49,670 nt of DNA from a virus. Numbering within the stretch: position 1 is the stretch's first letter; the number at the start of each line of letters is the position of its first letter. Position numbers and translations under genes: made by a program. The notes below the pieces were generated by a model that was not told where the DNA came from, did no database searches, and saw only the letters and a list, made by a program, of their open reading frames with translations. Below are positions 5,752 through 26,865 of this stretch, piece after piece. The DNA lies in the IMG/VR virus record IMGVR_UViG_3300022542_000604, positions 1 to 49,670 of that record. One strand, 5' to 3'.

Positions 5752-6572
5752 GTGAATATTAATTTGGTTTCTGACGCAAAACGCCACAATTTAGCCCTTA
5801 TGAAGATCTCGGCCTACCATAAAATGTTGGACGATAAAATATTTCTAAACGGTGTAGGTTGTTTTGATTTAACTATTGGCTCATGGCTATTTGATTTTAG
5901 TGAAAAATTACCTTGTGATTTAGAAGGTGGTCCAGGAATTGATCCAACCATACGATTAACTGATTACGATCAAATAAAACCTGATTACAGCCTATATTCA
6001 ATCTTGATTATTCCCTCGGCTATACATGGGCATATTGTCCCCGGAAATGCTCATTCTGTATAGTTCCAAAACAGAATAATCCTAAAATCCATTATTCAAT
6101 ATGGGAATTTCATGATTCTAAATTTAAGAAAATCTGCCTGCTCAATAACAACACCTTTTCAGATCCCCAATGGCGGGAAACATTTGAGGAAATATGGGAT
6201 GCTAGTTTAACGGTAATTGATGAAAATGGTTATGATTTACGACTAATGGATTTAGAAAAAGCCAATGCTTTAAGGAAAACAAAATTCCAAGGGTATATCC
6301 ATTATGCTTGGGATTTAATGGAAGATGAAGAAAGAATCCTTGTAGGATTGAAGCATGCTCCTCGTGGATTAGTATATGTGTTGATCGGATACAACACTAC
6401 ACAAGAAGAAGATTTATATAGATGCCAGAAAATACATGATTATAAATACGATCCTTATGTGATGCCATATAATCGAACTAAACAGGAAAAAACATTTCAA
6501 AGATTTATTAATACTCGTATGTATCGGAAATATCCAACTATCGAAAAAGCATGGCAGGACTATAAAAAATGA
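5752..6572 (+). pseudogene. Radical SAM protein with N-terminal cobalamin-binding-like part, frameshifted
   Basis: A GTG at 5752 after AGGAG opens a frame reading PNLALMKISAYHK-like (here NLALMKISAYHKMLDD), then GGPGIDPTIRL and PDYSLYS, which is the N-terminal half of a phage radical SAM family I recall. It stops at 6063. In the next frame, from ~6006, the expected continuation reads DYSLGYTWAYCPRKCSFC with the CX3CX2C cluster motif at 6036-6059, then continues without stop to 6572. Restoring one T in the TT at 6004-6005 would give SIFDYSLGY and a single ~273-aa protein. The break may be a sequencing error, a real mutation or recoding. An independent start at 6246 would lack the cluster and is not believed. 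Confidence 0.7.
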
Positions 6573-8816: not shown

Positions 8817-9209
8817 ATGATAATAACCTGTAAAATCTGCCAAAAATCTTTTGAGTGGCACCGCAAGGGAGGGGGTCGCCAGCCAACAATTTGTCTTGAT
8901 CCCAAATGTTATAAGATACGGGATAAACTCCAGTATCAAAAATGGAAGGCAACTCATAATTATACACGTTATGAAAAACGAAAACCTACTATTAAATTAC
9001 AGAGTAATGTGTATAAAAAGAAGCGCTGTACGAATATATTAACAGATGATAATGGCAAAAAATACAGATGTAACAAAATCACAGCCAATGGAGGTCGAAA
9101 TAAATATTACTGTCAGGCTTGTTGGGATCGCTTATCAGAGGGAGTATCTCAAGAACATTCTGCCTTTATTTATGATCAATCATATTCCGAAAATATTGAA
9201 TGTTCATAA
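8817..9209 (+). CDS. Zinc-finger protein (~130 aa)
   Basis: Two Cys clusters are visible: CKICQKSFEW...CLDPKC near the N-terminus, resembling the short CxxC fingers of phage HNH-linked proteins, and CTN...RCNK...YYCQACW further on. The protein is basic throughout. Two in-frame starts exist (8799 and 8817); 8817 avoids overlap with the previous gene and is chosen with low certainty. Last rightward gene before the convergent terminator. Confidence 0.6.
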   Translation: MIITCKICQKSFEWHRKGGGRQPTICLDPKCYKIRDKLQYQKWKATHNYTRYEKRKPTIKLQSNVYKKKRCTNILTDDNGKKYRCNKITANGGRNKYYCQACWDRLSEGVSQEHSAFIYDQSYSENIECS

Positions 9210-9211
9210 AA

Positions 9212-9262
9212 AACCCAGTCAGTGCTTAAATTCTTATTTAAGGGAAACTGCCGGGTTCTTTA
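9212..9262. terminator. Bidirectional intrinsic terminator between convergent genes
   Basis: AACCC...GGGTT encloses a long imperfect stem in which CTTAAAT pairs with ATTTAAG, with ACTG/CAGT between. It is flanked by an A-run on the left and TTCTTT on the right, so it can serve the rightward early block and the leftward operon. Confidence 0.7.
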
Positions 9263-9967: not shown

Positions 9968-10019
9968 TTAACTCCCTCAGGCCTACCTAGCTCCCAACTA
10001 GGCAAGATGAAGGGGTTAA
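9968..10019. repeat. Strong stem-loop between leftward genes
   Basis: TTAACTCCCTCA (9968-9979) pairs with TGAAGGGGTTAA (10008-10019), 11 of 12 positions counting one G-T pair. Inside, CCTAG (9986-9990) pairs with CTAGG (9998-10002). It lies between two leftward genes and has no U-tract, so it may be an RNA processing or attenuation element rather than a terminator. Confidence 0.55.
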
Positions 10020-10175
10020 TTACTTCCAAGGTTTAGGCTCAGGATAGTCAAAACCCCAGCCATCATGAGTTTTGAGGTATGCAATTTTTTTAGCATATCG
10101 GCTTAATTGACCTGGTATGCCCATACCTCTTTTACGTAATGACACCAATTTGATTCTTTTTTTACTCTTTGCCAT
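10020..10175 (-). CDS. Small basic protein (51 aa)
   Basis: The ATG at 10175 is preceded by GGAGGG. The product begins MAKSKKRIKLVSLRKRG, is strongly basic for 30 residues and ends with aromatic residues and Pro (GWGFDYPEPKPW). Nucleic acid binding is plausible from charge only. Confidence 0.6.
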   Translation of the reverse strand: MAKSKKRIKLVSLRKRGMGIPGQLSRYAKKIAYLKTHDGWGFDYPEPKPWK

Positions 10176-10191
10176 TTTCACTCCCTCCTCG

Positions 10192-10353
10192 TTAAATTTT
10201 TACACCTTCACTTTTGGCCCAGTTATACAATCCTATATCATTCAGAATCCATAACCGACGTTCATTGTTAGTCCGGGGTGATCCTGGAGCTATTTTCTGA
10301 ATACATTCATCAATTTCCTGTTTGTTTTGTTTTATAAATTTTGATAATGTCAT
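10192..10353 (-). CDS. Small helical protein (53 aa)
   Basis: The ATG at 10353 follows GGAGGG. Residues 1-20 (SKFIKQNKQEIDECIQK) are helical; the second half (PRTNNERRLWILNDIGLYNWA) reads like a short winged-helix or phage connector helix pair. No family is recognised. Part of the leftward operon. Confidence 0.6.
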   Translation of the reverse strand: MTLSKFIKQNKQEIDECIQKIAPGSPRTNNERRLWILNDIGLYNWAKSEGVKI

Positions 10354-10379
10354 ACTTAATCCCTCCATGTTTAAAGTGC

Positions 10380-10556
10380 TTAATTACCATTATAAAAAAA
10401 GTCATAGTGCCCAAAAAGATTCTTGTAAAATTTATATGTTACATGGCCTAATTTAACTAAATCCCATATCTTAGCACCATTGTTACACCAAAAAACCTTA
10501 TTATCGTGTTCAGTATACTTAATCGTTATATCATTGATTGTAATTGTTTGAAACAT
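10380..10556 (-). CDS. Hypothetical protein (58 aa)
   Basis: The ATG at 10556 is preferred over an upstream TTG because GGAGGG lies just before it. Mostly beta, aromatic-rich C-terminus (YKFYKNLFGHYDFFYNG). Function unknown. Confidence 0.55.
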   Translation of the reverse strand: MFQTITINDITIKYTEHDNKVFWCNNGAKIWDLVKLGHVTYKFYKNLFGHYDFFYNGN

Positions 10557-10614
10557 GGCTAAACCCTCCAATTAAATTGTTTGCTTCGGAACTCATATCC
10601 CCCCGTTAAAGTAT

Positions 10615-10896
10615 TTATATAGCATAATTATTATTATAAAATATCAACCAGCTTTCTAAAGTTTTCAAATCATCAAGAAGAGATTTAGTTATTCCCATTT
10701 TTTCTGGATGCAACAGCCAATGTAGTTTTATATGATCCGAATTATTTATAATTGCGAAATTATCCATATCATTATTAAACGGGTTTAAATCTACATGATG
10801 AACCACTTTATAGGTAGGCAAATTAGGATGTATTTTCTTAACTTTTCTTCTTGCCTTCATCCTCGAATAACCGATTTTACTATTTTTTGTTGTCAT
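10615..10896 (-). CDS. HNH endonuclease-like protein (93 aa)
   Basis: The HNH fold signature is visible at residues 32-60: VHHVDLNPFNNDMDNFAI with His33-His34 and Asn residues, then HIKLHW with His55 and His59. There are no zinc Cys pairs. The N-terminus is very basic (MKARRKVKKIH). Such proteins nick or cut DNA using one metal ion; this one is short, so it may be a free-standing homing enzyme or a regulator. Its start overlaps the upstream ribbon-helix-helix gene by 17 bp, which argues for one operon. Confidence 0.75.
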   Translation of the reverse strand: MTTKNSKIGYSRMKARRKVKKIHPNLPTYKVVHHVDLNPFNNDMDNFAIINNSDHIKLHWLLHPEKMGITKSLLDDLKTLESWLIFYNNNYAI

Positions 10897-11017
10897 TAAT
10901 TATCCTTTTTAATCCAATAACACAGGCATCTTGAATTGATTTAATTTTATCCTTTTCTTGTAATCTCCGAAGGGCTACCCATAGATCATGTTGTAATCTA
11001 ATAGTCACTATTTTCAT
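10880..11017 (-). CDS. Ribbon-helix-helix DNA-binding protein (45 aa)
   Basis: The ATG at 11017 follows a perfect AAGGAGGTGA. The product begins KIVTIRLQHDLWVALRRLQ, a beta strand with alternating residues followed by two helices (SIQDACVIGLKRII). This is the Arc/CopG ribbon-helix-helix pattern and length. Such proteins bind operators as dimers of the N-terminal strand and commonly autoregulate. It is the first gene after the strong leftward promoter, fitting an autorepressor of the operon. Regulation of the neighbouring non-coding region is speculation. Confidence 0.7.
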   Translation of the reverse strand: MKIVTIRLQHDLWVALRRLQEKDKIKSIQDACVIGLKRIINDNKK

Positions 11018-11049
11018 TTAGTTTCACCTCCTTTCGAGTTTTTACTGCT

Positions 11050-11078
11050 ATTATAGTACAACCGTTTTATGCTGTCAA
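11050..11078 (-). promoter_or_regulatory. Strong sigma-70 promoter of the leftward operon
   Basis: On the minus strand TTGACA (11078-11073) and TATAAT (11055-11050) are separated by exactly 17 bp: perfect consensus. The transcript would start near 11043 and enter the ribbon-helix-helix gene after ~25 nt. The -35 sits within GCTTGACAGC, a partial dyad. Confidence 0.9.
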
Positions 11079-11251
11079 GCTGTTTTTTTGTCATTCAGTT
11101 AATATGTTATGCAAAAGAGCGGCCAAACATAGTGGCCAGCTAACTATCTAATATTACACAATATCTTAATAAACAATATAAGATACTTATGTATCAAATA
11201 AAACACTATTGTACCGGGTTATTGAATGTTTAATTATTTCACATATTTACA

Positions 11252-11300
11252 GTGTCTCAAACCCAAGACACTTATGTCTTAGGTTTTATTTATGAGACAC
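11252..11300. repeat. Compound inverted repeat
   Basis: GTGTCTCA (11252-11259) pairs perfectly with TGAGACAC (11293-11300). Inside, AAGACA (11265-11270) pairs with TGTCTT (11275-11280) around CTTA, extended by AACC/GGTT. One side carries a 7-nt AT bulge. It could be a protein-binding site, replication-origin feature or RNA hairpin; no U-tract follows. Confidence 0.6.
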
Positions 11301-11350
11301 ATATTATCACCACTAAGTCAAATTAGATATATCGGATACTTATTACCCAT

Positions 11351-11379
11351 TTGACAGGACTGTCAGGGTATAGTATACA
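11351..11379 (+). promoter_or_regulatory. Promoter with operator-like dyad (candidate ncRNA 1)
   Basis: TTGACA (11351-11356), 17 bp, TATACA (11374-11379). The palindrome TGACAG-GA-CTGTCA (11352-11365) covers the -35, as an operator would. Confidence 0.75.
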
Positions 11380-11385
11380 TATATT

Positions 11386-11543
11386 GACTCACCAGCCAAG
11401 AGCTGGAGGAGATGGGATTTCCTTATTAAGTGGTAATCCTGAGATCAAAGCTGGCCGAGTTATTTCAGGTAGGCGCGGCGCCAACGTCTGCACCTAAACC
11501 CAGCAACCAGCAGTAAACGTGTGCCAGGTACTGGGTTTTTTTA
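11386..11543 (+). ncRNA. Candidate small non-coding RNA 1 (~158 nt)
   Basis: The unit lies between a consensus promoter and a U-tailed hairpin, without a usable reading frame. Predicted hairpins by eye: CCAGC/GCTGG (11392-11406), GGATT/AATCC (~11415-11439), and AGGT/ACCT enclosing a GC-rich loop (~11467-11495), then the terminator. The sequence does not match any RNA family I recognise. Regulatory, packaging or decoy roles are all open. Confidence 0.55.
11496..11543 (+). terminator. Intrinsic terminator of candidate ncRNA 1
   Basis: AAACCCAG (11496-11503) pairs perfectly with CTGGGTTT (11531-11538), followed by a further run of T. The 27-nt loop can pair further through ACC/GGT. Confidence 0.8.
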
Positions 11544-11551
11544 TTATTAAC

Positions 11552-11580
11552 TTGACAAGCTGTAAGTAAAAGAGTATAAA
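11552..11580 (+). promoter_or_regulatory. Consensus promoter in the non-coding region
   Basis: TTGACA (11552-11557), 17 bp, TATAAA (11575-11580). CTTGACAAG at the -35 is itself a palindrome with one central base. No clear terminator follows before the next promoter, so transcripts may read into unit 2. Confidence 0.75.
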
Positions 11581-11665
11581 GAGATCTCATAACTATTTTT
11601 CCTTCTTTTCATCTTGATAGAGACTTTGGATAAGTACGTGACATGCTTTTTCAGGGTTTTTTTTA

Positions 11666-11694
11666 TTGACAGGAACATTAAACTATGGTAAAAA
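11666..11694 (+). promoter_or_regulatory. Promoter for candidate ncRNA 2
   Basis: TTGACA (11666-11671), 17 bp, TAAAAA (11689-11694); the -10 is weaker than in the other two. GTATTAATAC, a 10-bp palindrome, lies at the expected start. Confidence 0.55.
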
Positions 11695-11700
11695 AGTATT

Positions 11701-11884
11701 AATACGCGTGAAGGCCATAGTTGGCCGTTAAATCCTGAGGTGGCCAACAAAGCGCCACCAAATTAGCGGACCTGTTCTTCTTATATTAATAGATTGAGCA
11801 TTAGGATAGGTTCAGATCCACTTAAACCCGGTGCCCAAGGAGTAGGAATAAAAGCGTTACACTCACCTGGCCCGGGTTTTTCTT
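11701..11884 (+). ncRNA. Candidate small non-coding RNA 2 (~184 nt)
   Basis: The unit contains two perfect hairpins, GGCCA/TGGCC (11713-11726) and GGTGGC/GCCACC (11739-11759). They compete with a third perfect pairing, GTTGGCC (11720-11726) with GGCCAAC (11742-11748). Mutually exclusive stems are typical of regulatory RNAs. It ends in a strong terminator. No matching RNA family is recognised. Confidence 0.5.
11824..11884 (+). terminator. Intrinsic terminator of candidate ncRNA 2
   Basis: AAACCCGG (11824-11831) pairs perfectly with CCGGGTTT (11872-11879), followed by TTC; the long loop pairs again through CCA...TGG. Confidence 0.75.
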
Positions 11885-11994
11885 AAACAATACCGAGGAT
11901 AAGCCAATGTTCAAATAGACTGGCAAAGTGCTTAAACTTATTCAAGCGAAGTCGCCGGATTAATATGAGAGTGGACTTTTCCGGTAAACCTTTT

Positions 11995-12043
11995 AAAACC
12001 CTTAGAATAGTCTGCATAGGATCATTTCCAGGGGTTTCTATAA
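11995..12043 (+). terminator. Terminator-like hairpin 3
   Basis: AAACCC (11996-12001) pairs with GGGTTT (12032-12037); GGA/TCC inside. Only a short pyrimidine stretch follows. No clear promoter is seen for the preceding ~110 nt. Confidence 0.45.
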
Positions 12044-12116
12044 CGACCATTAAGGCACCGATAAAGCCTAAAATGATACAGTGGGGACGATTTAATTAGA
12101 TCTCCATACCAAATTA

Positions 12117-12152
12117 GCCCCTGGTTGCTTACATAGGATCAGGGGTTTTCTT
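12117..12152 (+). terminator. Terminator-like hairpin 4
   Basis: CCCCTG (12118-12123) pairs with CAGGGG (12140-12145) around a 16-nt loop and is followed by TTTTCTT, a good intrinsic terminator just upstream of the HNH promoter. Confidence 0.65.
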
Positions 12153-12168
12153 ATGAAGATATTAGGTA

Positions 12169-12197
12169 TTGACAGAAAAACCATTATACTATATATA
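12169..12197 (+). promoter_or_regulatory. Promoter of the HNH gene
   Basis: TTGACA (12169-12174), 17 bp, TATATA (12192-12197). The predicted start (~12204) is within a few bases of the ATG at 12206, implying a leaderless or nearly leaderless mRNA. Confidence 0.75.
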
Positions 12198-12205
12198 AGA
12201 AGGTT

Positions 12206-12574
12206 ATGAGTGATTATAGAAAATATCTGAAATCCTACCAATGGAAAAATATAAAAGAACAAGTAATTACTAAAGTACATAACAAATGCGAATTATGTGG
12301 ATCAAGAAATAATTTAGTGGTTCATCACATAAAATATCCGAAGGTCTTAGGTACAGAGACATTAAATGATCTTCAGTGTTTATGTGATGATTGCCATAAC
12401 GTAAAATGTCATAATGGTAGCTCTTCAAATAGTAAGATTAGATTAACCAAACAGGAAAAGCGAAAGCGCAAAATAAGCAGGCAAAAAGCTAAATTCGCAG
12501 GACTTGTAAGAATATACAGTAAAGAGGAAATAAAGGACTATATTACCGGCATGGCTCGGCAACCATGTACATAA
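12206..12574 (+). CDS. HNH endonuclease (122 aa)
   Basis: Residues 28-64 form a complete zinc-HNH module: CELC (28-31), His40-His41, Asn54 and CDDCH (60-64). The N-terminus (YLKSYQWKNIKEQV) matches the helix that precedes the module in phage HNH proteins; the C-terminus is very basic, then polar. HNH proteins located next to terminase genes are known to assist terminase-mediated DNA cleavage in some phages (e.g. HK97 gp74), or act as homing enzymes. The position ~1.1 kb upstream of the small terminase fits either. The gene has its own promoter immediately upstream. Confidence 0.8.
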   Translation: MSDYRKYLKSYQWKNIKEQVITKVHNKCELCGSRNNLVVHHIKYPKVLGTETLNDLQCLCDDCHNVKCHNGSSSNSKIRLTKQEKRKRKISRQKAKFAGLVRIYSKEEIKDYITGMARQPCT

Positions 12575-12616
12575 CTGCCCTATTAAGGTAATATTTAACC
12601 GTTAACTTTTAAATAA

Positions 12617-12781
12617 GGTGTTAATCGTAGCAACTCCGCGTAGGACGAGCTATTCCCGGATGCCGCGGGCCTAATTACCTACCAGGATAATTACTAAGGT
12701 AAAGTAGGATATCGTAAAAAGGTGATACATAAGGTTGTTGTAATATTTATACCTTATCGTTACTTAGAAGTTGTTAACACC
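12617..12781 (+). ncRNA. Candidate structured RNA/DNA element upstream of small terminase
   Basis: The 325-bp gap between HNH and the next small gene holds no convincing frame but dense pairing. GGTGTTAA (12617-12624) pairs perfectly with TTAACACC (12774-12781) as an outer stem. Inside lie CCGCG/CGCGG, CCTA..TACC with GGTA..TAGG, and ATAAGGT/ACCTTAT. TTATCGTTAC (12754-12763) can instead pair with GTAACGATAA (12869-12878) downstream, and GGTATA/TATACC forms a hairpin at 12831-12846. It may be a riboregulator, a packaging or origin element, or an intron relic; none is proven. Confidence 0.4.
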
Positions 12782-12899
12782 GAAAAACCCTGGATATATC
12801 ACCTGGTAGAACCTCTGTAAATAGTTAAATGGTATATAAGTATACCAACCAACTATATCCTATAAAAAGTAACGATAATCAGTATTTAAAGGATTTATT

Positions 12900-13087
12900 A
12901 TGATAGATACATACCATTATATGCAGTTACAAGGTAAAGGACGTTGGCCTTCTGTAGATAAGATAGAGAATGAAGATATAGTGACAAAACCACACAAATT
13001 TATAACTTTTGGAAATGGCAAAAATTAGGGGAATATGAGGGATTAACTATTTATCGTATTAATGCATTGTTACCTCAAAAGGAGTAG
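12900..13087 (+). pseudogene. Small protein gene with apparent one-base loss
   Basis: The ATG at 12900 follows AAAGGA and gives 42 codons to 13028 (MIDTYHYMQLQGKGRWPSVD...). In the -1 frame the codons after 12992 read without stop to 13087 and look protein-like (FWKWQKLGEYEGLTIYRINA). Adding one A to the AAAA run near 12985 would join the two into a ~62-aa protein. Alternatively the 42-aa product is real as it stands. Confidence 0.4.
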
Positions 13088-13137
13088 TTATGAAAAAATA
13101 TCCGGTCTTACCGTAAAACCCTTCTATCCCCTAATTT
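13022..13137. repeat. Spaced 11-bp inverted repeat
   Basis: AAATTAGGGGA (13022-13032) and TCCCCTAATTT (13127-13137) are perfectly complementary across 94 bp, flanking the end of the small gene and preceding the promoter at 13144. Confidence 0.5.
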
Positions 13138-13143
13138 ATTCCC

Positions 13144-13172
13144 TTGACAGAATGTACCTAATATGTTATCAG
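13144..13172 (+). promoter_or_regulatory. Possible promoter for the terminase block
   Basis: TTGACA (13144-13149) with a 17-bp spacer to TATCAG (13167-13172). The -10 is poor beyond TAT, so confidence is moderate. Confidence 0.45.
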
Positions 13173-13211
13173 TAATAGTAATCATTACTAATAAGGAATA
13201 TCTTAGTCTCA

Positions 13212-13358
13212 ATGCCAAAACCCTACAAAAAGGAAACTAAATCACACTATATGTCCCGTTGCATCCATCACGTTCGGGAAGAAAACCCCGGCAAAAAAAG
13301 ACTATTCTATATTCTCCACTGCCAAGGACTCTGGGAAAAGTATCATGGCACTAAGTAA
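13212..13358 (+). CDS. Small conserved phage protein (48 aa)
   Basis: The ATG at 13212 starts MPKPYKKETKSHYMSRCIH, a pattern I associate with short phage proteins or protein tails reading 'MPKP..E....FMSRC', which usually end in a CYSIW-like motif; here a Cys-Trp pair is kept (HCQGLWEKY). It overlaps the small terminase start by 14 bp. Function unknown; the coupling suggests a packaging-linked role. Confidence 0.6.
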   Translation: MPKPYKKETKSHYMSRCIHHVREENPGKKRLFYILHCQGLWEKYHGTK

Positions 13359-13956
13359 AAAAGGGGTGAAATGGGATGTGATAGAAGTAGAATATCGCGC
13401 CGGTCAACTAGCTATCCGGGAAATCGCACGGCAACACAATATATCAAATCCTGCTATCATCAAACGAGCCAAAACAAGAGGGTGGACACGGGATCTAACA
13501 GAACAAATAAAACAACGGGTAAAAGCTAAAATGGTGAACGATGGGTTAGCAGTTAGCAACGCGCTAACCGATGAGGATATCATCGAAAAAGCAGCTGATC
13601 GAAATATAAAAGTCATTGAATTACACCGGAAAGATATCTCCGACCTCCAAGAAATAGAAACCACCTTAAAAGCAGAATTAGCTGCAAACCATAAACTTGC
13701 TATTGTGTATAAAGGTGAAGTTACAGGCCAATTACCTATGACTGTATTAGACAAATCCCGTACAGTAGACAATCTTTCAAAGATAATGCACAGGAGGATC
13801 ACTCTTGATCGGCAAGCTCGTAATATTGACGATAAGACCCCCACCGGCAGTGAATCAGATCCTATCCATGTTAAACATAGTATGGACACCTCCGGGTTAT
13901 CGAAGGCCGTTGAGGTGCCAAAACCCTGTGGAGTTCCGCAATTAGAGGAAGGATAG
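13345..13956 (+). CDS. terS: Terminase small subunit
   Basis: A 203-aa protein. The N-terminus (residues ~8-50) is a helix-turn-helix of the type found in small terminases: WDVIEVEYRAGQLAIREIAR, then HNISNPAIIKRAK and GWTRDL. A helical oligomerisation region follows (~65-155), and the C-terminus is Pro/Glu-rich, as expected for contact with the large subunit. TerS recognises the packaging site on phage DNA and loads TerL. It lies 2.2 kb upstream of terL with an HNH gene between, a frequent phage arrangement. Confidence 0.8.
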   Translation: MALSKKGVKWDVIEVEYRAGQLAIREIARQHNISNPAIIKRAKTRGWTRDLTEQIKQRVKAKMVNDGLAVSNALTDEDIIEKAADRNIKVIELHRKDISDLQEIETTLKAELAANHKLAIVYKGEVTGQLPMTVLDKSRTVDNLSKIMHRRITLDRQARNIDDKTPTGSESDPIHVKHSMDTSGLSKAVEVPKPCGVPQLEEG

Positions 13957-14126: not shown

Positions 14127-14639
14127 ATGAATAGATCGTGTTATTATGTACCTTTAACTGAAGATGTATTTGAAAGGGTTAGGAAGGCGTTTGAGGATGA
14201 TTTAGTACCGATCATAGAGATAGCTACCTGGTTTTATGTTAGTAGGCAGGCTATCTATAAGTTTTTAAAGAAGCATGGTATTAATACAACTAAAAAGCAG
14301 TTAAAGGTACAGTGTGAGTGGTGTGAGAGGGTATTTGATAGGACTAAGGGAAGGATAAGGAAGCAGAAATACCATTTTTGTTCTACTAAGTGTTATTACA
14401 GTTATATCGGTGAAATAGGGATTAATTACAAACCTAACCGTCATGGTCAAAGGATAGGGAGACAGAAGGTATCTAAATATTTTGAGTTGTTACCTGGTAT
14501 GGTAGTTCATCATGAAGACGGAAATAACCTAAATAATGAACTACACAATTTAAAAGTCTTTGCTAATAATGGAGATCATGTAAAGTATCATAGATGGGTT
14601 AATAAGACTGATCCTATCTGGGATGGATCGAAGCTGTAA
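14127..14639 (+). CDS. HNH endonuclease with HTH and zinc finger (170 aa)
   Basis: Residues ~26-50 form a helix-turn-helix (IIEIATWFYVSRQAIYKFL). Cys63/Cys66 and Cys85/Cys89 form a zinc finger. The HNH core lies at 126-155: VHHEDGNNLNNELHNL with His128-His129 and Asn residues, then HVKYH with His151 and His155. This order matches phage intergenic homing endonucleases. GC-poor codon use resembles its neighbours. It has its own promoter and sits between the two terminase genes, a typical invasion site for such elements. Confidence 0.8.
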   Translation: MNRSCYYVPLTEDVFERVRKAFEDDLVPIIEIATWFYVSRQAIYKFLKKHGINTTKKQLKVQCEWCERVFDRTKGRIRKQKYHFCSTKCYYSYIGEIGINYKPNRHGQRIGRQKVSKYFELLPGMVVHHEDGNNLNNELHNLKVFANNGDHVKYHRWVNKTDPIWDGSKL

Positions 14640-23981: not shown

Positions 23982-25208
23982 ATGCCGAAGAAAAAAGATG
24001 CTACCCAAGAAAAGGGCGTATCGGATAAGGACAAAAACCTGAAACCCGATACACAGGAAAAAGAAATTAAAGAAGAACCCCTAACAGAAGAGGAAGTTAA
24101 GGTTAAGGAAGAAGCTGAGGCTAAGGAAAAGAAGGAGAAAGAAAGCACTCTTACAGACCGGAACCAGCAAATACAAGACATGGCTGACCGGGTAGATGAA
24201 GATTGGAAAAAAGAGGTCGGTATTACTGAGGAAGGAAAAACAGCTGAAGAAACGGAAGAAGAAGCTAAAGCCAAGGTAGAGAAAGAAGCCGAAGCTAAAG
24301 CTAAGGAAAAGAAAGAAGGGGAAACAGAAAGTGAATACCAAAAAAGGCAGGAAGACCTTCTGGAAACCCCAGAAGAATTGGAGCAAGAAAAGGCTGCTCT
24401 TGAAGCTAAGAAAAAAGAAGATACAGTTGAAATAACTGTTGATGGTGTTAAGAAAAAAGTACCTAAGTCTCAAGTGACTGATGCCGGTATTAGAGTACTG
24501 CAAAAGGAATCGGCAGCCGATGCCAGACTCGAAGAAGCTGTACAATTACTTAAAGAGGCTAAAGGTATAAAGGAAAAGAAAAAAGAAAAGAAAAAGCCTG
24601 ATGAAGAGCTTGCTGATCTTGGTGTAGATAAAAAGAAAATATCCGAACTCCGGGAAGCCATTCAATATGGTGAGGAAGAAGACGCCGCAACTGCTATTGA
24701 AGAATTAATTCGATTAGGGCGCGGTGGTAAAGCTGAAATACCTGAAGGTTTAATGACTATTGAGCAATATGAGGAAAAGGAAAAGGAAAAAACAGAAAAA
24801 CAAAACCAAGATAAAATCAATGAATTATTAGAGAAATTTCACCTTCCACCTAGTAAAGGCGGTTTTTCAGATGTAACGGACGACCCCTACCTTCGCGCTG
24901 CATGTATTGCAGAAATAGATGCTGAGTTAGAAAAGGGTACCCCAAATAATTGGGAACTCTACGAAACAGCAGGCAAGAAAGTGCGTACATGGTGGGGTAA
25001 TACGATAAATGAAAATGCTCTGAAAGAAGCCGCTGAGCAGAAGGCGAAGGACGAACTCGCTGCGAAGCGAGATAAAAAGGCAAAAGCAGCAGGGGCTACC
25101 ATAACGGGCGTCAATGCTAAAACGGAAACAACTAAAAAGGAGCCCAAAGAGGAAACCGTAAGCGATATTGTCGCTGAAATGCGGAAGAATCGTGGGCAGC
25201 CTGTATAG
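23982..25208 (+). CDS. Scaffolding protein
   Basis: A 408-aa, highly charged Glu/Lys-rich protein immediately upstream of the capsid gene, in the place of phage scaffolds. The first 150 residues are low-complexity helix; residues ~150-180 hold a small ordered segment (VEITVDGVKKKVPKSQVTD) with more helix after it; ~250-300 again ordered. The C-terminus is basic, as needed for capsid contact in P22 and phi29 scaffolds. Scaffolds template procapsid assembly and leave before packaging. The call rests on composition and position. Confidence 0.7.
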   Translation: MPKKKDATQEKGVSDKDKNLKPDTQEKEIKEEPLTEEEVKVKEEAEAKEKKEKESTLTDRNQQIQDMADRVDEDWKKEVGITEEGKTAEETEEEAKAKVEKEAEAKAKEKKEGETESEYQKRQEDLLETPEELEQEKAALEAKKKEDTVEITVDGVKKKVPKSQVTDAGIRVLQKESAADARLEEAVQLLKEAKGIKEKKKEKKKPDEELADLGVDKKKISELREAIQYGEEEDAATAIEELIRLGRGGKAEIPEGLMTIEQYEEKEKEKTEKQNQDKINELLEKFHLPPSKGGFSDVTDDPYLRAACIAEIDAELEKGTPNNWELYETAGKKVRTWWGNTINENALKEAAEQKAKDELAAKRDKKAKAAGATITGVNAKTETTKKEPKEETVSDIVAEMRKNRGQPV

Positions 25209-25220
25209 GAGACATAAATA

Positions 25221-26865
25221 ATGAGTGGACAAGTATGGGTTACAAACAGTCTTGGAGGTTATATGTCTGCCAAGAACTTGTCCAAAAAGCTGCGTTTGGC
25301 AGTACAGCCTTTGATAAAATTCCGTGGTGTAAACTGCTGAAATGACGGCGGAATTAAAACTCTCTCTGATTGACTTGGATACCCAGACATGGGCGACAGG
25401 GGGCAAGGTATGAACTTAAAAGAATTTAAAAAATGTCCTATATGTAAAAAAGTTATCCGTGAGTGCGAAACAGATTTTTTAACACAGTATCATGATATAT
25501 GTGTTGAATGTGGATGGCGGGGATGTTTTATAAGTCAATACCAGCCTGAACGACTGAGCGAGAGAGCATCTATAAAAGATGATGCGACAGTCTGAACCCT
25601 GATATAACGTAAGATAATATAAGTCAGGGAAGCTACCTTAACATGGCGTTCACCTTTATATAATGCTATCAAATAGTGACTATTGACGCATTAGGAAGGT
25701 CATAAAAGTAACAGATTGCAGTTATGCGATGTCAAAGACGCAACGCAGCAGGGCAAGAAAAAAGGTGATACATATCACTGGGATGTGTTCTCGGACGTTT
25801 CAACTCAAGGTACAACTCTAACTGAAACGAAAACCATGCCGGAAACCCCATTTGTGATTACACAGGGAACTTTAACTGTGGATGAATTTGGTGAGCTAAT
25901 CGCCACCTTATTGTCTCACATAAAGGCAATAATGGAAAAACGGGTGAATTGCTGGAATATCCTGAGAGCTGTTTATACTACAACGTGATTAGAAATGATG
26001 AGCGTGAATGTTATAAAAAATAAGCAGATTGGACAATCAGCAGCCAAGCCATGAAGGGCATAGGTTTCATGGAAGGTTCAACGACTATGAAGGTGAGTCC
26101 CAACAATAATCCTTCGCACGAGTGCCCGTCTCTAACGAGAAGATATAGTCTGAGCTGCATGGAGACATGTAGAGCTATGGTTTAAACGGCCATAGGATAA
26201 CAAAACTGAATAGTGTTCCGTTTACTCAGAAGCTCGATAATCTGAGTGAACTTCCGGTAACAACGATAATTAATAAGGTCATTAAAAACGACGCTAAAAA
26301 GGCGTTTGATATTGCAGCGGAAGCTCAGTTTTCTTATACCCCACTGCATATCTGTGAAGATGGCAGTTCAACTACTGCCGTAAATCTTATGACCGCTTCA
26401 ACCAATACTGATACTGCAAGTGTGGCTCTTGGTAAAGGTCATGTCAAGGCTATCAGGGATATTATGGTAGAACGTAATATTCCGCCATATCAGTTAGATG
26501 ATTATATTGCTATATCATGGCCGACTACATTCAGAACCTTTAAGAACGACCTTGAAAGCATTAAACAGTATACCCCTGCAGGATTTCACATGATACTGAA
26601 TGGTGAGGCTGGTCGTTATGAAAATACAAGGTTCATTGAACAGACAAACATTGCAAAAGACGGAACTACATCCACGGATTGGTGTTACTTTATGGGTGAT
26701 GATACCGTATGTGAGGCAATTGTTGTGCCGGAAGAGATAAGGGGAAAAATTCCGGGTGATTATGGAAGGTCTAAGGGGATAGCGTGGTACTACCTCGGAG
26801 GCTTTGGACTGGTACATACCGCACAACTACAGGCCCGCATCATTCGATGGGGCTCTAAAGCATAG
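25221..26865 (+). CDS. Major capsid protein, three exons split by two group I introns
   Basis: Exons 25221-25325, 25719-25892 and 26209-26865 join in one frame to a 311-aa protein. Exon 1 reads MSGQVWVTNSLGGYMSAKNL and ends LIKFR; exon 2 continues QLCDVKDATQQGKKKGDTYH and ends TVDEFG; exon 3 resumes NSVPFTQKLDNLSELPV and ends IRWGSKA. The joined order (QVW..NSLGGYM, KGD..HW.V, TQGTLTVDEFGNSVP.T.KL, KNDAKKAFD, ERNIPPY..DDYIAI, GRYENTRF.EQTN, E.IRGKIP) matches a phage capsid family I recognise. Both 5' exons end in U and both introns end in G, as group I splicing requires. Without splicing the frame stops after 39 codons (TGA 25338-25340). GGAG at ~25208 is the ribosome binding site. Confidence 0.85.
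25326..25718 (+). ncRNA. Group I intron 1 in capsid gene (393 nt)
   Basis: The last eight exon bases AATTCCGT (25318-25325) pair with GCGGAATT (25348-25355), giving an 8-bp P1 with the required U-G pair at the splice site. CAGAC (25384-25388) pairs with GTCTG (25590-25594), fitting P7; a 61-codon ORF occupies the P8-side loop between them. CCCTG/CAGGG follows as a P9-like stem. The intron ends in G at 25718 and the exon resumes at CAG. Remaining core helices were not fully resolved by eye. Confidence 0.75.
25410..25595 (+). CDS. Zinc-ribbon ORF inside intron 1 (61 aa)
   Basis: The ATG at 25410 follows AAGG (an in-frame ATG at 25389 lacks a good site). CPIC (residues 9-12) and CVECGWRG (~30-37) form a four-Cys ribbon like that of Lar-type or Com-like proteins. 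There is no LAGLIDADG, GIY-YIG or HNH core, so it is not an obvious homing endonuclease. Its stop codon lies inside the P7 strand. It may be cargo, a maturase-like helper or a homing enzyme relic. Confidence 0.5.
   Translation: MNLKEFKKCPICKKVIRECETDFLTQYHDICVECGWRGCFISQYQPERLSERASIKDDATV
25893..26208 (+). ncRNA. Group I intron 2 in capsid gene (316 nt)
   Basis: This intron has the group IA core strings known from T4 td-like introns: GGGTGAATTGCTGGAA, AATCAGCAGCCAAGCC, GGTTCAACGACTATG and AGATATAGTCTG. GACTAT (26083-26088) pairs with ATAGTC (26145-26150) as P7, and further hairpins follow (GCTATGG/CCATAGG). P1 pairs exon TGGT with GCCA near 25902 with U-G at the junction, plus a weaker outer part. 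No ORF lies within. It ends in G at 26208. Confidence 0.9.

Follow-up and report, generated by a model that had tools for sequence, protein, structure and literature searches.

Positions 11351-12152 of virus record IMGVR_UViG_3300022542_000604 carry an array in which rightward promoter motifs alternate with terminators. The array is confirmed as a feature of the sequence, and it most likely makes three short RNAs. That its three units encode phage small RNAs acting in trans is the best-supported reading, to which we give about even odds. Promoter motifs, terminators, their alternation and the absence of convincing reading frames are seen directly; from these we infer transcription, RNAs of discrete size, action in trans and a host target.

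Promoters and terminators in a gene-poor gap

The record is a single contig of 49,670 bases, which we analyzed at full length and refer to as the window. Its source is an unclassified tailed phage that codes for an O-like replication protein, a RusA resolvase, HNH proteins, a small and a large terminase, and an SU10-type portal. A tRNA search of the window found none. The large terminase shares about 60-64% identity with its nearest counterparts found in IMG/VR, and the portal about 37% with Vibrio phage portals. The phage therefore has no close sequenced relative in the searched collections, which possibly omit its own record. The array lies in a gene-poor gap of about 2.3 kb (11018-13344), with leftward genes on one side and, on the other, the genes for HNH, small terminase, and large terminase, all rightward. 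The gap itself contains the HNH gene (12206-12574) and, at 12900, what may be a 42-aa ORF. For one step, gene calls came from a crude home-made codon score. The features of the region are as follows.

11078, minus strand: consensus promoter TTGACA-N17-TATAAT, start of the leftward genes
11259-11286, plus strand: hairpin with a T-rich tail, upstream of the array (AAACCCAAGACA...TGTCTTAGGTTT)
11351-11379, plus strand: P1, sequence motif TTGACA-N17-TATACA
11386-11546, plus strand: predicted RNA1, about 160 nt, its ends inferred from promoter and terminator
11496-11538, plus strand: T1, AAACCC...GGGTTT followed by TTTTATTA; passes strict limits
11552-11580, plus strand: P2, TTGACA-N17-TATAAA, beginning within 15 nt of T1
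11587-11663, plus strand: predicted RNA2, about 76 nt, an unpaired pyrimidine-rich 5' part (UUUUUCCUUCUUUUCAUCUU) and then the terminator hairpin
11620-11660, plus strand: T2, weak GU-rich terminator-like hairpin followed by eight T; absent under strict limits
11666-11694, plus strand: P3, TTGACA-N17-TAAAAA with TG ahead of the -10 element (extended -10 type)
11701-11884, plus strand: predicted RNA3, about 184 nt, lacking a convincing reading frame
11824-11879, plus strand: T3, AAACCC...GGGTTT followed by TTCTTAAA; passes strict limits
11996-12037, plus strand: hairpin AAACCC...GGGTTT with a poor T tail and no promoter of its own, CATAGGATCA on the loop side; found under laxer limits only
12117-12146, plus strand: terminator GCCCCTGG...CAGGGGT followed by TTTCTT, no promoter of its own, contains CATAGGATCA; passes strict limits
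12169-12197, plus strand: P4, TTGACA-N17-TATATA, promoter of the downstream HNH gene, motif as in P1-P3
12206-12574, plus strand: HNH endonuclease gene (122 aa), the first gene past the array
13144-13172, plus strand: promoter-like TTGACA-N17-TATCAG, preceding the small terminase gene
13345-13956, rightward: small terminase gene

The initial annotation had placed three rightward promoters in the interval, and this is borne out: TTGACA-N17-TA occurs at 11351, 11552, and 11666. Among 5,000 dinucleotide shuffles of 11351-12152, 4,898 had no match, 100 had one and 2 had two; none reached three. Across the gap 11018-13344 there are five matches, and 0 of 5,000 dinucleotide shuffles reached even three. 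The whole window has nine, at 285, 11351, 11552, 11666, 12169, 13144, 14069, and 18234 on the plus strand and at 11078 on the minus strand. All nine are apparently intergenic, six of them ahead of candidate reading frames and three opening the non-coding units. The related pattern TTGACAG-N16-TA matches five times in the window, always within 11054-13168, a count reached in 0 of 100 whole-window shuffles.

A generic sigma-70 scan of 10000-13500 gave 17 sites against a shuffle mean of 14.0, no excess, and P1-P3 are missing from its list because their -10 hexamers do not end in T. With our own sigma-70 weight matrix, 150 sites in the window score at least 8, so that P1-P3 are not exceptional on score alone. 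They stand out for having an exact -35 hexamer and an unvarying 17-nt spacing and for alternating with terminators. We judge them to be real mainly because the same motif fronts other genes of this phage, namely, HNH (12169), small terminase (13144), and a second HNH gene (14069).

Under strict limits (T score of at least 3.3 and dG of -12 or lower), the plus strand of the interval has three terminators; 1,000 dinucleotide shuffles had none in 880 cases, one in 111 and two in 9, and never three. Laxer limits gave four, as many as were reached by 12 of 1,000 shuffles. On the minus strand of the interval, no terminator was found under strict limits. All four rightward hairpins claimed earlier were recovered (11496-11538, 11824-11879, 11996-12037, and 12117-12146). 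Their similar design holds insofar as three have the AAACCC...GGGTTT form. The same form recurs at 9207-9262, in a two-way terminator between convergent genes; it is therefore a terminator style of this phage and no sign that the RNAs are related or belong to one RNA family.

The elements are closely packed. Past the T1 hairpin, which stops at 11538, the T tail reaches about 11546, and P2 begins at 11552; the T tail of T2 ends at about 11663, and P3 begins at 11666. The HNH promoter at 12169 likewise comes shortly after the hairpin at 12117-12146. At least two complete units had been proposed, 11386-11543 and 11701-11884, and both stand; the number is most likely three, since 11552-11663 forms a further short unit, whose terminator is weak.

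Several repeats were seen around these hairpins. The sequence CATAGGATCA occurs exactly twice in the window (12015-12024 and 12132-12141), in the 3' part of each of the last two hairpins; when one mismatch is permitted, there are nine matches against a mean of 3.9, and 2 of 100 shuffles reached nine. The hairpins at 9207-9262 and 11918-11965 are alike (AGTGCTTAAA..CTTATT.AAG.GAA...GCCGG). Segment 11885-12045 resembles 9220-9257 with a strict score of 33, which 3 of 60 shuffles equaled, and the minus-strand folds are alike. Just before the array, an imperfect long inverted repeat (GTGTCTCA...TGAGACAC, about 11252-11300) encloses the hairpin at 11259-11286. The fold of 11220-11300 has a z score of -3.62, and this palindrome may be a protein binding site.

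Predicted RNAs

We propose that host sigma-70 RNA polymerase would initiate at the three phage promoters, all of the TTGACA-N17-TA type, and that an intrinsic terminator would end each transcript ahead of the next promoter. The products would be RNAs of about 160, 76, and 184 nt. Since the same promoter type fronts the HNH and terminase genes, the RNAs are probably expressed together with those genes in the course of infection. They could then act in trans by base pairing or through a host RNA-binding protein, and their targets may be host rather than phage RNAs.

The interval had been described as free of protein frames. This is right for the plus strand, where predicted RNA1, RNA2, and RNA3 contain frames of at most 28, 16, and 30 codons, with no Shine-Dalgarno sequence apparent ahead of them. 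It is less certain for the minus strand, where a leftward ORF at 11465-11590 with AAGAAGGAA is a candidate. Four minus-strand ORFs of 41-67 aa overlap 11351-12152; the one at 11465-11590 (41 aa) is antisense to the RNA1/RNA2 junction and has AAGAAGGAA about 9 nt ahead of its ATG.

Compared with shuffles, the bodies of the RNAs are weakly structured, not clearly above chance. Predicted RNA1 folds with a z score of -1.37 (-0.93 without the 3' arm of the terminator), predicted RNA2 with -1.88, and the segment 11884-12152 with -1.79. Predicted RNA3 has -2.67, and its terminator hairpin alone gives -2.56 versus -1.66 for the body; much of its fold signal is therefore the terminator. Predicted RNA2 has a layout common among base-pairing small RNAs, in which an unpaired stretch leads into a terminator hairpin and a long U tail.

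The initial annotation recognized no known RNA family, and a search of Rfam agreed, matching none over the array. Two subthreshold hits, rdlD at 12100-12151 (22.8 of 50 bits) and STnc150 (12.5 of 60 bits), were taken as chance. We also looked for pairing with 75 start regions of the phage. Shuffles did at least as well in 28 of 40 cases for RNA1, 5 of 40 for RNA2, 10 of 40 for RNA3, and 33 of 40 for 11884-11995; this is a weak test, and with pairing no better than in shuffles it indicates no phage target. The idea of a CsrA decoy was rejected, as 16 GGA motifs against a mean of 11.7 were reached by 198 of 2,000 shuffles. Kinship between the units was rejected as well: pairwise alignments were within chance after multiple testing, and consensus folds were near zero. 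RNA1 and 12575-12800 align with a local score of 37 (1% of 300 shuffles; 21 pairs), and the same score is found elsewhere in the window.

Possible roles of the array

Of the original reading as a phage-encoded small RNA array, the non-coding promoter-terminator units hold, far beyond chance, and the small RNA function is what we propose. Phage small RNAs are already known; it is the arrangement of three in a row that is unusual, with none of 219 related loci having two or more units. Lambda PreS/LPR1, 6S, and OOP, 24B_1 of the Stx phage, and sRNA1 and sRNA2 of PAK_P3 are likewise short, non-coding and located in phage genomes. An account of PAK_P3 describes two abundant RNAs of about 100 nt, from neighboring intergenic regions, that are high late in infection (PMC4933390), and a review covers bacteriophage small RNAs (PMC12197685). 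The known examples were observed as transcripts, whereas the present units are known from sequence; here, in contrast to them, three promoter-terminator units stand head to tail. Neither blastn in phages nor Rfam gave any sequence relation to known phage small RNAs. The array would work in the manner of the small RNA genes of lambda and PAK_P3. If the three RNAs are made, the late region of the phage would open with a compact multi-sRNA cassette. Phage small RNAs are thinly described in the literature, and the repeated promoter motif can serve as a search handle in other unclassified phages.

A possible alternative, to which we give a smaller share of belief, is control in cis of the late genes. 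Here the stacked terminators would insulate the HNH and terminase genes or form a read-through leader, and the short RNAs would be by-products. The position fits, directly upstream of the rightward HNH, small terminase, and large terminase genes, as do the two promoterless hairpins (11996-12037 and 12117-12146) between RNA3 and the HNH gene. The model would be the lambda late leader (pR', 6S RNA, tR', and Q), in which a promoter, a short RNA and a terminator likewise stand upstream of the late genes. However, lambda has one such unit and the array has three, more promoters than an insulator needs. Moreover, the downstream genes carry the promoter motif themselves: the sites at HNH (12169) and small terminase (13144) would be superfluous for a single read-through leader. 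Among 40 window proteins compared with PHROGs, most of which had no PHROG or one of unknown function, none was named as an RNA polymerase, a phage sigma factor or an antiterminator such as Q. It is rather unlikely that the region is decaying regulatory DNA, with relic promoters and terminators left after the loss of small genes and invasion by free-standing HNH genes, and with transcripts that perhaps have no function. HNH-type genes do flank the array on both sides (10615-10896, 12206-12574, and 14127-14639), the RNA bodies have no excess structure, and no homologue was found in the loci and collections compared. Against decay, the three promoters with identical -35 element and spacing and the three strong terminators are all intact.

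We regard a packaging region as very unlikely. The HNH gene at 12206-12574 adjoins the small terminase gene at 13345-13956, as in an HK97-type cos region, and the hairpins could be recognition structures of a cos or pac site; in HK97, according to PMC11331095, the HNH protein gp74 stimulates cos cleavage. The strongest features, however, are promoters and T-tailed hairpins on one strand, and a search of 10900-13400 revealed no conspicuous set of direct repeats. An arrangement like a type I toxin-antitoxin pair, with a small leftward peptide under antisense control, is highly improbable. It would have RNA2 act as antisense to the start of the 41-aa ORF at 11465-11590, and the AAGAAGGAA ahead of that ATG is indeed the complement of the RNA2 pyrimidine stretch; but no strong leftward promoter lies just upstream of the ORF, and RNA1 and RNA3 would be left unexplained. 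Scarcely credible is a single system in which the RNAs are partners or guides of the stand-alone HNH protein, a minimal IscB-type nuclease without RuvC. As with IscB and its omega RNA (HEARO), a non-coding region lies directly upstream of an HNH gene with an IscB-like HNH part. The protein encoded at 12206-12574 matches IscB NF040563 in the HNH part only (E of 5e-11; 42.3 bits, with a family cut-off of 175 bits) and gives weak matches to IscB chain 9k2z_A and to a Cas-HNH chain. However, IscB has RuvC parts besides HNH, whereas this protein has 122 aa and the HNH part only, and no Rfam match to HEARO RNA at E of 10 or below lies upstream of the gene. RNA anti-CRISPRs (Racrs) also differ: they are solitary repeat units, and the array has no repeated unit. 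Rfam includes CRISPR repeat families. None of these matched the array at E of 10 or below, within a partial Rfam coverage of them.

Related loci and the rest of the window

The comparison set comprised 219 related loci with 2,685,535 bases: 58 were found via the portal, 79 new ones via the large terminase in viral contigs, and 80 came from genome contigs and 2 from phage records. A large terminase relative is present in 177, of which 105 have at least 3 kb upstream of it. When 11001-13344 was compared with these loci, nhmmer found nothing, and blastn gave only two matches, in one locus, with E of 0.36 and 0.97. Under the limits used, which included the same sigma-70 weights, 0 of 219 loci had an array of at least two promoter-terminator units within 700 bases. 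As a control with strict terminators, the window itself yielded the units 11351 to 11496 and 11552/11666 to 11824, T2 (11620-11660) being outside the strict list. TTGACA-N17-TA occurs 43 times in the 219 loci, never three times within 2.5 kb on one strand. The comparison is only a rough one, because many of the relatives have a higher G+C content and infect other hosts. Terminator clusters upstream of the terminase genes in two loci (L127 and L200) proved to be ordinary ones, located between genes or close to them and unrelated in sequence. In a third (L019), a structural gene is preceded by a promoter and three hairpins, which have no sequence relation to the array. In the phage and plasmid collections, blastn found nothing credible, nor did a search of viral contigs for three exact patterns. 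With small terminase, large terminase alone, and HNH as queries, no relative was found in viral contigs; the portal and large terminase alignments did find relatives.

A few observations concern other parts of the window. The 45-aa leftward ORF at 10880-11017, directly after the consensus promoter at 11078, resembles a ribbon-helix-helix repressor by eye; it had no match in Pfam, PHROG, or NCBIfam. Across the window, a single Rfam hit reached the gathering threshold, a group I intron at 25888-26172 (75.2 bits), which appears to interrupt the gene (25210-26420) that follows 23982-25208. A second intron-like insert, at about 25330-25690 with a small cysteine-rich ORF, is probable by eye and has no Rfam match. 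Finally, at 5752-6572, two adjacent ORFs match positions 1-95 and 179-275 of the 305 positions of phrog_9298 (radical SAM). Since these are the first and last thirds of the family, the radical SAM gene is split or broken.
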